NCBI GenBank assembly: GCA_947168065.1
Contig: CAMVKH010000004.1
Location: forward strand, 62,001-126,000
Source: an uncultured Bacteroidales bacterium
Lineage (GTDB): Bacteria > Bacteroidota > Bacteroidia > Bacteroidales > UBA932
Reading direction: 5' to 3'
DNA length: 64,000 nt
The position numbers and the translations under genes were made by a program. The notes under the pieces are model-generated. The model was not told the DNA's origin, made no database searches, and saw only the letters and a program-made list of their open reading frames with translations. This document shows, piece after piece, positions 3,370 through 9,950 of this stretch (positions within the stretch are counted from its first letter, which is position 1; the number at the start of each line of letters is the position of its first letter).

Positions 3370-4326
3370 TTATTTCTTTTTAAGCGGGAAAAGAGCGACC
3401 AGCACTTCAACGGGCATCCTGAGGAGCCGGGCGATTTTGGCGTTGTCGGCATTGTAATCAAAGTGCAGTACCTTCGCCAGGGACAGTTTTTCATCCTTCC
3501 CTAACAGCGTTGCCTTCTGCCCATTATATTGCTCTTTGCAGATCCGGTAGACAACGTCGTTCAACTCATCGTCGGTGTAGAATATCGCATCACCCACCAT
3601 TGTGGCAATATCACGGTAAGACTCTATCTCCTTGGACAGCTTATGGAAATAGTGACGCGCATCCCGGAAAACCCCTTCCCCAATATCCAGCCGACAATAG
3701 TTCATTGGCGAGAAATACCCATCGACTATCTGGTAGGACAGAGGGTAATCGGCCTGTCTTGAATGGACGAACGCCCGCCTTTTCAATATATTGACGTCCC
3801 CAAACAAAGACGTCTGACGCTCCTTGGCAATGGGATTGAAATAATAGCTGTTCGCACCATATGGATACGTGAAGGGCGTCTGGTCGGGATCGACGACAAA
3901 ATTATTCCGGTTCGTATAACCGATCTGGTTCCGCAGCGATTCGAGTGTCTCTATCGCTATCGGTTCATCGCAGTTGAACCGGCGCAAATCTCTCTGGCCT
4001 CCATTCTTGACCAGATACCAGCGCAGGCGTTTCTTGAATAGTTCAAAAAACGCCAGAACCTCTTCCTTACTCCCACAAATCACGAAGTGTACATGATTGC
4101 TCATGATCTCGAAGGTGATGATCTGCACCTGCGGGCAATCGTATGCACACATCGCCACCAAAGTCATGGCAAACACATAATCTTCCGGATTCCTGAAAAT
4201 GACCGGCTGCTTCTCCCCGGGCGTGCATAAATGCCAGATTCCACCGTATTTCCGCAGCGTCATTTGGAAGACGCGTCGACAGCGTTCTTCCTTCTCATAG
4301 AAAGTGTGTTCCTTAACCATATTCAA
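3370..4326 (-). mobile_element. REP-associated tyrosine transposase-like (Y1/IS200-like, RAYT) protein
   Basis: 318 aa; EIMSNHVHFVICG HUH motif (HxH) and downstream conserved region typical of Y1 transposases; flanked by paired palindromes. Confidence 0.8.
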
Positions 4327-4549: not shown

Positions 4550-4632
4550 GAAAAAGGCGCTTCTCCTTTGCAAAGGGAGAGGCGCCTAGTCCTTTTAACC
4601 TAAAAACTTAACCTATGAAAAAACTATTCGAT
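4550..4632 (-). ncRNA. Candidate sigma-54-dependent sRNA, copy 1
   Basis: Start inferred 12 nt from the -12 box; ends at terminator hairpin AGGCGC...GCGCCT plus T-run; body shared with copy 2. Confidence 0.6.
4556..4587 (-). terminator. Intrinsic terminator (rimM 3' end / sRNA copy 1)
   Basis: AGGCGCCTCTCCCTTTGCAAAGGAGAAGCGCCTTTTTCTTTTT on minus strand. Confidence 0.8.
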
Positions 4633-4641
4633 TGTAGGTTA

Positions 4642-4657
4642 AGCAAAGGGTGTGCCA
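4642..4657 (-). promoter_or_regulatory. Sigma-54 (RpoN) -24/-12 promoter TGGCACACCCTTTGCT
   Basis: Perfect match to TGGCACRNNNNTTGCW on the minus strand. Confidence 0.7.
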
Positions 4658-4671
4658 AAGTCGAATTCCGA

Positions 4672-5133
4672 TCAGAGAAGTCCTTCGGGAATATCGAGGG
4701 TGATGACTTCGCCGTGGATATTGACGATGAGTTCTTCGTGCAGGGGGAGCAGGACTTCGCCGCTGTCTTCCGTTTCGACGGTCAGGACGATGTTGCCGCC
4801 GTAGTCGCTGAAATCCACGATTTCGCCGATGATGCGCCGCGTGCGGCTGTCGCGGACCCTGAGGCCGATGAGCGTGTCTTCCTCTTCTTCCTCTTCTGCG
4901 GCGAAGCGGACCTCGCGGCCGACCAGTTCTTCGGCCTGGGCGAGCGTATCGACATCCTCGAACTTTACGATCAGGCGATTGCCCTTTTCCTGCAGGGATT
5001 CAAAATAAAAAGGAACCGGCAGTCCATCGAATTCGATGAATACCGGTTCCTGTACGTTCAAATCCTGCGGACTGTCTGCCGGGCGGCTCAACACCACTTC
5101 TCCGGCTGCGCCCCAGGATTTCAGCACCTTCAT
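4672..5133 (-). CDS. rimM: Ribosome maturation factor RimM
   Basis: RimM-like N-terminal beta domain and PRC-barrel C-terminus; immediately downstream of rpsP. Confidence 0.9.
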   Translation of the reverse strand: MKVLKSWGAAGEVVLSRPADSPQDLNVQEPVFIEFDGLPVPFYFESLQEKGNRLIVKFEDVDTLAQAEELVGREVRFAAEEEEEEDTLIGLRVRDSRTRRIIGEIVDFSDYGGNIVLTVETEDSGEVLLPLHEELIVNIHGEVITLDIPEGLL

Positions 5134-5141
5134 CCCGAAAA

Positions 5142-5699
5142 CTACGCTTCCGGATTCTCAGCGGGAGCCTCAGCTTCAGCAGCGGCGGCAGCAGCCTCTT
5201 CGGCAGCGGCCTTGGCGGCAGCTTCAGCAGCAGCGGCGAGCTCAGCCTTCTTCTTGGCGATCGCTTCAGCGCGCTCCTCGTTGACCTTGGCCTCAGCCTT
5301 GATGGCAGCCTTGGCGGCAGCTTCGTTGGCGCTGGCGATGGTCTGCTTCTTGGAGGCCAGTTTCGAATCTTTCTGGGTCTTCCAGGCAGCATAGCGGCGC
5401 TCGGCTTCCTCCTCGGAGAAAGCACCCTTCGCTACACCACCCTGGAGGTGTTTCTTCAGCAGGACACCTTCGTAGGAGAGGATGCGACGGGCGGTCGTGG
5501 TCGGCTGGGCACCTTTGTTGAGCCAGTCGAGGGCACGTTCACCATCGAGGACGATGGTCGCGGGGTTTGTGTTCGGGTTGTAGAGGCCGATCTGTTCGAT
5601 CAGACGGCCGTCGCGCGGTGCGCGTGCGTCAGCGACGACAATGTGGAAATACGCGTAATTCTTCTTGCCGTGACGCGAAAGGCGGATTTTAACAGCCAT
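5142..5699 (-). CDS. rpsP: 30S ribosomal protein S16 with long Ala-rich C-terminal extension
   Basis: [38 protein letters not shown]; extension of about 80 aa rich in A/E/K. Confidence 0.95.
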
Positions 5700-9126: not shown

Positions 9127-9825
9127 ATGAAACGCCTATGCATCTATATCCTTGCGGCCCTGGTCCTGTTTGCGGCCTGCAAGAAGCCCGACAACCCGCA
9201 ACCTGCTGAAGGCACGGAGGAAACAACCACGGAACAAACCCCTGAAACGAACAATCCGACAACCACCACTATGAACGAACAACCTGCTGCCCCCGCCGAC
9301 AAATGGGCGGAACTCGGCGAAGAGCCGATGCTCAAGATCAAGACCACCGACGGCACGATGACCGTCAAACTGTATGCGGAGACCCCGCTGCACCGCGACA
9401 ACTTCGTGAAACTGGCCCGCAGCGGCTTCTACAACGGCCTGCTGTTCCACCGGATCATCAAGGGCTTCATGATCCAGGGCGGTGACCCCTTCACCAAGGA
9501 CTCCACCAAGATCGCACAGTTCGGCACCGGCGGCCCCGGCTACACCATCCCGGCCGAAATCGTAGCAGGCAAGACGCACAAGAAAGGCGCCCTGGCGGCC
9601 GCCCGTCGCGGCGACCAGGTCAATCCGGCCAAGGAATCGTCCGGCTCGCAGTTCTACATCGTCCAGGATGAAGAAGGCTGCAAGCATCTCGACGGCGAAT
9701 ACACCATCTTCGGCGAAGTGGTCGACGGCTTGACCGTCATCGACAAGATCGCCTCCGAACGCACCGACATGCGCGACCGCCCGATCCGCAAAGTGGAAAT
9801 CATTTCGATAACACCTGCCGAATAA
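9127..9825 (+). CDS. Cyclophilin-type peptidyl-prolyl cis-trans isomerase lipoprotein
   Basis: Lipobox LFAACKK; FHRIIKGFMIQGGDP and GSQFYIVQ cyclophilin motifs. Confidence 0.95.
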   Translation: MKRLCIYILAALVLFAACKKPDNPQPAEGTEETTTEQTPETNNPTTTTMNEQPAAPADKWAELGEEPMLKIKTTDGTMTVKLYAETPLHRDNFVKLARSGFYNGLLFHRIIKGFMIQGGDPFTKDSTKIAQFGTGGPGYTIPAEIVAGKTHKKGALAAARRGDQVNPAKESSGSQFYIVQDEEGCKHLDGEYTIFGEVVDGLTVIDKIASERTDMRDRPIRKVEIISITPAE

Positions 9826-9845
9826 TTTTTACTGCTGCCCGACTT

Positions 9846-9861
9846 TGGCACACCCTTTGCT
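9846..9861 (+). promoter_or_regulatory. Sigma-54 (RpoN) -24/-12 promoter TGGCACACCCTTTGCT
   Basis: Perfect match to TGGCACRNNNNTTGCW. Confidence 0.7.
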
Positions 9862-9870
9862 TAACCTACA

Positions 9871-9950
9871 ATCGAATAGTTTTTTCATAGGTTAAGTTTT
9901 TAGGTTAAAAGGAACAGGCGCCCCCCTTGGAAAAGGAGAGCGCCTTTTTC
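9871..9950 (+). ncRNA. Candidate sigma-54-dependent sRNA, copy 2
   Basis: Start 12 nt after the -12 box; ends at AGGCGC...GCGCCTTTTT terminator; 74-bp block 9840-9913 identical to RC of 4590-4663. Confidence 0.6.
9916..9949 (+). terminator. Intrinsic terminator (PPIase 3' end / sRNA copy 2)
   Basis: AGGCGCCCCCCTTGGAAAAGGAGAGCGCCTTTTT. Confidence 0.8.

Follow-up and report, generated by a model that had tools for sequence, protein, structure and literature searches.

Two near-identical genes for a putative small RNA (sRNA) lie on opposite strands of the window, by which we mean the whole stretch of 64,000 nucleotides analysed here. They are designated copy A (4657-4551, minus strand) and copy B (9846-9949, plus strand). 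Copy B reads, in this order, TGGCAC-N5-TTGC, a short spacer, GTTTTTTCATAGGTTAAGTTTTTAGGTTAAAAGGA, a GGCGCC hairpin and a T-run, and the exact reverse complement of the sRNA body that an earlier note on this DNA had placed at 9871-9913 is indeed TCCTTTTAACCTAAAAACTTAACCTATGAAAAAACTATTCGAT. From the -24 box to the end of the body, both copies have the same sequence; they diverge in the terminator hairpin. The features of the two loci are the following:

9127-9825, plus strand: cyclophilin-type peptidyl-prolyl isomerase with an N-terminal signal (Pfam Pro_isomerase)
9846-9851, plus strand: -24 box TGGCAC of the sigma54 promoter of copy B, read directly and conserved in homologues that were found without the promoter
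9857-9860, plus strand: -12 box TTGC of copy B (GC at 9859-9860), read directly, the N5 spacing being fixed among homologues
9861-9868, plus strand: TTAACCTA, an inverted repeat of TAGGTTAA (9888-9895, within the body), upstream of the predicted transcription start
9872-9949, plus strand: predicted transcript of copy B, about 78 nt, deduced from promoter and terminator
9879-9913, plus strand: body of copy B, 35 nt, with both seeds, supported by the duplex profile on SusC starts and nearly fixed among homologues
9916-9949, plus strand: intrinsic terminator of copy B, GGCGCC hairpin and T-run, recognised from sequence, fold and stability in homologues
4643-4657, minus strand: sigma54 promoter TGGCAC-N5-TTGC of copy A, identical to that of copy B
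4551-4631, minus strand: predicted transcript of copy A, with the body at 4624-4590 and the terminator at 4586-4551
4643-4631 and 9860-9878: spacers of copies A and B, shared genome by genome and otherwise variable
4672-5133, minus strand: rimM (Pfam RimM)
4615-5394, plus strand: spurious open reading frame (ORF) of 259 aa, MKKLFDCRLSKGCAKV..., antisense to copy A and then to rimM, overlapping part of rpsP

Transcription of copy B from the plus strand is well supported by the perfect TGGCAC-N5-TTGC upstream and by the GC-rich hairpin with its T-run downstream. The start was put 12 nt past the C of the -12 box and the end at the T-run. According to the predicted fold, which was compared with the layout of the FopS sRNAs of Bacteroides, the 5' part is open, a weak small hairpin lies inside the body, and a strong terminator hairpin follows. 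The body contains two seeds, one for the start codon (GTTTTTTCATAGG) and one for the leader (TTTTTAGGTTAA), as judged from the duplex profile. The core 16-mer TTAACCTATGAAAAAA has two sites in the window, at 9880-9895 (minus strand) and 4608-4623 (plus strand), with none expected from shuffled sequences. The ORF at 4615 had already been called spurious, and we agree, because it is the antisense of the second sRNA copy. In both copies, TTAACCTA and TAGGTTAA form a perfect inverted repeat. Among the aligned homologues, the TTAACCTA-type repeat (TTAACCT) is common in the genus and missing from more distant relatives; it would fold over the seed if transcription began further upstream, or could alternatively serve as an operator. 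Copy A has as a neighbour an ORF of 318 aa (3370-4326, minus strand) in which SNHVHFV resembles the HUH motif of REP-associated and IS200-type transposases; a Pfam search with this ORF gave no match.

The 121-nt query was matched in 63 of the 101 relatives searched, and the arrangement of promoter and seed was found in at least 119 stretches. Among the matches listed, the named records are mostly uncultured Bacteroidales from rumen and gut, including Candidatus Cryptobacteroides and Candidatus Coprenecus. Promoter and body are nearly fixed in the aligned homologues. The terminator stem is free to vary, with 89 different first hexamers in 134 homologues, and the terminator hairpin is stable (at or below -10 kcal/mol) in all 133 homologues tested, with a mean of -23.5 versus -10.3 kcal/mol for shuffled sequences. 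Two copies are present in the source assembly (77% complete) and mostly one to three per genome in the genus, and in many genomes of the genus the pair is found in synteny, its members on opposite strands with about 5.2 kb between them. These observations bear on the simplest alternative, namely that the two loci are the terminators or 3' untranslated regions of rimM and the isomerase with a chance repeat, or a mobile inverted repeat, and that no functional RNA is made. Their position invites such a reading, as both lie just past same-strand stop codons (15 nt from the rimM stop to the -24 box of copy A and 21 nt from the isomerase stop to that of copy B). We nevertheless find it barely credible, because the feature has a promoter of its own, because body and promoter are conserved and the stem varies in sequence yet always forms a hairpin, and because a pair kept in synteny at this distance in many genomes is unlike a mobile repeat.

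In the variable 22 nt that precede the body, likeness is 91% between the copies of one genome versus 76% across different loci of different genomes, and none of 2000 permutations gave a within-genome likeness as good. These spacers, shared within each genome, suggest that the two copies evolve in concert, probably by gene conversion between the inverted copies, which appears to be a new observation.

The earlier note assigned the promoter to RpoN (sigma54), and the conservation of TGGCAC-N5-TTGC bears this out: invariant GG and GC at a fixed spacing, by which sigma54 promoters are recognised, are found at both copies and in the homologues. The promoter was assessed in matches whose alignment excluded it, a choice by which circularity was avoided; 12 antisense gene leaders were removed and 26 sRNA-like matches kept. 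When these were sorted by eye, 14 had an exact TGGCA[CT]-N5-TTG[CT] and 4 a degenerate form of it, and 8 were of the sigmaABfr type, with no TGGCAC and in most cases with a clear TAnnTTTG. All 14 exact sigma54 boxes belong to the window's own family, and the sigmaABfr types to some other genera of this family and to other families. Loci found by a pattern that includes the promoter were not counted as promoter evidence, since such counts would be circular. Judging from these alignments, sigma54 promoters replace those of sigmaABfr across most of the window's family, which is new here. The competing view is that the RNA is an ordinary FopS member transcribed with sigmaABfr, as the FopS promoters of Bacteroides are (PMC11697453), that TGGCAC and TTGC are coincidental, and that the real promoter is TTTG-N19-TACAATCG. 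A TTTG at 9844-9847 does have the correct spacing from TACAATCG, and clear TAnnTTTG boxes occur in some related sRNAs, but the -7 stretch does not read TAnnTTTG and differs freely from species to species, whereas TGGCAC-N5-TTGC is fixed, and TTTG itself often has G or C in place of its first T. The nature and variability of the -7 stretch make this reading fail, and we regard it as very improbable.

With the sigma54 promoter as the preferred reading, its distribution becomes of interest. The perfect sequence TGGCACNNNNNTTGCW occurs only at the two sRNA genes in the source genome assembly of 2.02 Mb, and the sRNA pair likewise has the only perfect sites in two relatives that are 98% (G003) and 95% (G011) complete; as far as these assemblies tell, this exclusiveness is also new. 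Across 40 genomes of the genus there are 98 perfect sites versus 75 for the reversed pattern, and coordinate matching places 49 of the 98 at sRNA genes. Allowing one mismatch gave 42 sites, as against 63 with the pattern reversed; the ones inspected lay inside long open frames, and no regulon was readable from these sites; weaker sigma54 promoters probably exist that are indistinguishable from chance here. The rpoN gene is present in the source genome and in 98 of the 101 relatives. Four strong PF00158 proteins represent the sigma54 activators of the source genome, three of them of response-regulator type by sequence. Two response-regulator activators (L140, G000:C2:110570, and L141, G000:C9:45447) are near-duplicates in which the loop that usually reads GAFTGA reads GAFTDA. 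Upstream of the sRNAs, a search for a conserved activator site gave none, and the enriched words there resemble isomerase coding sequence. The papers searched contained nothing relevant on sigma54-driven sRNAs or on RpoN-controlled glycan uptake in Bacteroidota, which leaves the absence of such reports unproven.

The targets were approached through the proposal that the body is antisense to a SusC-like translation start and that its complement should be sought at the starts of the genome. Searched literally with up to two mismatches, and with the sRNA copies set aside, the 16-mer matched only one start in the source genome, that of exbB. Alone, this search would resemble a refutation, and bipartite pairing therefore had to be tested for. 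Complementarity proved strongly enriched at the start codons of SusC genes; the proposal thus holds as regards pairing and fails as regards a continuous duplex, the pairing being bipartite instead. Predicted duplexes between the 35-nt body and the leader (-40 to +18) had a mean energy of -18.0 kcal/mol for 91 SusC starts from the source genome and its genus relatives versus -11.7 kcal/mol for 283 control starts, which were drawn from the window and from related loci; genes and starts were simple, uncurated ORF calls. Controls resembling signal peptides had a mean of -11.9 kcal/mol (p=4e-20 for the difference from SusC), none of 100 shuffled sRNA bodies equalled the real body on SusC starts, and against leaders shuffled with dinucleotides kept, the mean z was -1.5 for the SusC starts and +0.1 for the control starts. 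Reversed leaders yielded -12.0 kcal/mol, and with a reversed sRNA body SusC starts did not differ from controls. The SusC leaders of one genus are not independent of one another; they were also clustered, and the 53 clusters of related leaders gave -16.9 versus -11.7 kcal/mol (p=2e-13). Within the source genome alone, nine SusC starts, one of them reassigned by hand, averaged -17.8 kcal/mol versus -12.1 kcal/mol for 43 genes of the window (p=7e-4). Not every SusC leader fits: one in the source genome reached -7.6 kcal/mol at the start first chosen (-15.7 elsewhere) and another -14.5 kcal/mol.

The first part of the pairing is formed by UUUUUUCAUAGG on the start codon and codons 2-3, from AUG to +9 with UUUUUUCAU, and AUG is paired in 94-98% of the leaders. 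The second part is formed by UUUUUAGGUUAA on the TTAACCTAAAA block at about -10 to -20. Of the SusC leaders, 25% contain words like AACCTA, as against 2% of the reversed leaders and 0.7% of the controls. In the modelled fold, the inner hairpin of the body may compete with target pairing. Since the TTAACCTAAAA motif is common to the leaders of SusC genes over long distances and AGGTTAA occurs twice in the RNA as a repeat, the motif might have another role, for example in ribosome recruitment, and the RNA might, without base pairing, capture a leader-binding protein as a decoy or sponge. The RNA is, however, the complement of the leader rather than a copy of it and so cannot mimic it for a binder of single strands; moreover, the complementarity extends over the start codon and codons 2-3, and FopS has been found experimentally to act by pairing (PMC11697453). 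For these reasons we give the decoy model very little credence and retain pairing with the SusC start as the preferred reading.

Predicted targets likely include envelope genes other than SusC. The start of exbB (L003, G000:C1:190615-190630) gave a duplex of -18.8 kcal/mol, and the leader of mscL (L358, G000:C1:119735), with TTAACCTAAAA 21 nt before the start, one of -20.8 kcal/mol; the latter match is a possible link to osmotic or envelope functions. ExbB, of the MotA/TolQ/ExbB family, is the energiser of TonB-dependent uptake. Outside the sRNAs, the source genome has 8 sites resembling TTAACCTAAAAA, and 5 of these lie 17-40 nt before starts, namely those of two SusC genes, mscL, a small protein putatively of the outer membrane and a putative lipoprotein; one more site lies before a SusC-like start that is truncated by the contig end. 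By their predicted products, the genes next to such sites are mostly envelope genes. It might be argued that a few of these other mRNAs (exbB, mscL and further envelope genes) are the main physiological targets and that the SusC signal amounts to a mild by-product, exbB being the closest to the 16-mer and both duplexes being strong at -18.8 and -20.8 kcal/mol. We consider this improbable, because SusC is the class that was tested and found enriched, both in the source genome and across the genus.

We therefore favour, with good though not full confidence, a pair of trans-acting, FopS-related sRNAs of about 75-80 nt that would be transcribed with RpoN and would repress SusC-type transporters. 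Observed are the two genes, their promoters and terminators, the degree to which these are conserved, and a complementarity to SusC starts that is statistical in nature; from these observations we infer the following course of events. RNA polymerase with sigma54 and an enhancer-binding protein would transcribe both sRNA genes. The induced sRNA, its body largely single-stranded, would pair with the leader and start codon of mRNAs for SusC-type transporters and would stop ribosome loading on them, so that the susCD operons would be shut off; further envelope genes (mscL, exbB and the putative outer-membrane protein) would perhaps be repressed too. By analogy with sigmaE and MicA/RybB, a response to outer-membrane or envelope stress would in this way reduce the burden of those outer-membrane proteins that are most abundant. 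Of the signals proposed in the earlier note, nitrogen or carbon found no support, and an envelope signal is judged more plausible in view of the role of sigma54 in Flavobacterium psychrophilum (PMC9723704) and of the bile-salt response of FopS; envelope stress as the inducing signal is a tentative proposal by analogy, to which we assign slightly less than an even chance. That the sRNA pair, by turning off SusC-type transporters and perhaps exbB, constitutes the main and perhaps the only strong RpoN output of this clade is conceivable, and we lean towards doubting it.

RpoN is a little-understood global regulator in Bacteroidales, and it gains here a concrete predicted output, the post-transcriptional control of glycan uptake, in a lineage that is widespread in gut and rumen and uncultured. 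Related RNAs under a different switch are already known from Bacteroides. One sRNA family would have swapped its sigma factor and kept its seed and targets, and the evolution of a post-transcriptional regulon becomes traceable through a promoter swap.

The closest known system is FopS of Bacteroides thetaiotaomicron, a family of 14 paralogous sRNAs that bind SusC mRNAs close to the start codon and repress translation (PMC11697453). FopS is induced by bile salts, driven by sigmaABfr and antagonised by the RRM protein RbpB (PMC11697453; Nat Commun 2025). An Rfam scan of the window at gathering thresholds gave no match. A lax search of 201 bases with the FopS model RF04319 scored 28.2 bits (E=0.012; model positions 1-71 of 71), below the gathering score of 56, and relatives in other genera and families scored 35 and 43 bits. 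The likeness comprises the open 5' seed with UUUUUCAU, a second AGGUUAA block, the terminator, the end-to-end alignment to the model, the presence of several copies per genome and the complementarity around the SusC start codon. The differences lie in the promoter (sigma54 here, sigmaABfr in FopS), in the copy number (2 here, 12-15 in Bacteroides) and in the fact that repression by FopS is experimentally proven, whereas here it is deduced from sequence. No RRM_1 gene of the RbpB type was found in the source genome (a draft, 77% complete), and such a gene occurs in none of the 16 genus genomes with a high-identity syntenic sRNA pair and in 13 other genomes of the genus. This newly noted absence of RbpB alongside the syntenic pair likely goes back to a single loss; as nearly all of these genomes are draft assemblies, it is suggestive. 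It suggests that the FopS circuit can do without its RbpB half. The RNA appears to be a homologue of FopS with a probably similar mode of action; score, promoter, copy number and the lack of RbpB mark it as a variant rather than a standard member of the family.

The sigma54 regulon of F. psychrophilum, another member of the Bacteroidota, serves envelope stress and protein quality control; it shares with the present case the phylum and the -24/-12 promoters and differs in that the outputs described are protein genes, the available part of the report containing no FopS-like sRNA (PMC9723704). GibS resembles our RNAs in having an R1-type seed at the 5' end and in acting at translation starts, but is 142 nt long and has a second seed, R2, a PM2 promoter and other targets (PMC7366714). 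Its model RF04182 scored 16.8 bits, far from the gathering score of 115. In Escherichia coli, the sigmaE-controlled sRNAs MicA and RybB exemplify how an alternative sigma factor turns off the synthesis of outer-membrane proteins at the start codon. They differ from the present pair in the class of sigma factor, in their unrelated RNA sequences, in having porin targets instead of SusC, and, on present evidence, in the use of Hfq. If the sRNA pair is indeed the main RpoN output of the clade, which we lean towards doubting, it would be a sigma54 counterpart of the sigmaE-MicA/RybB shut-off, derived from an RNA of the FopS type by replacement of its promoter and kept after the loss of RbpB.
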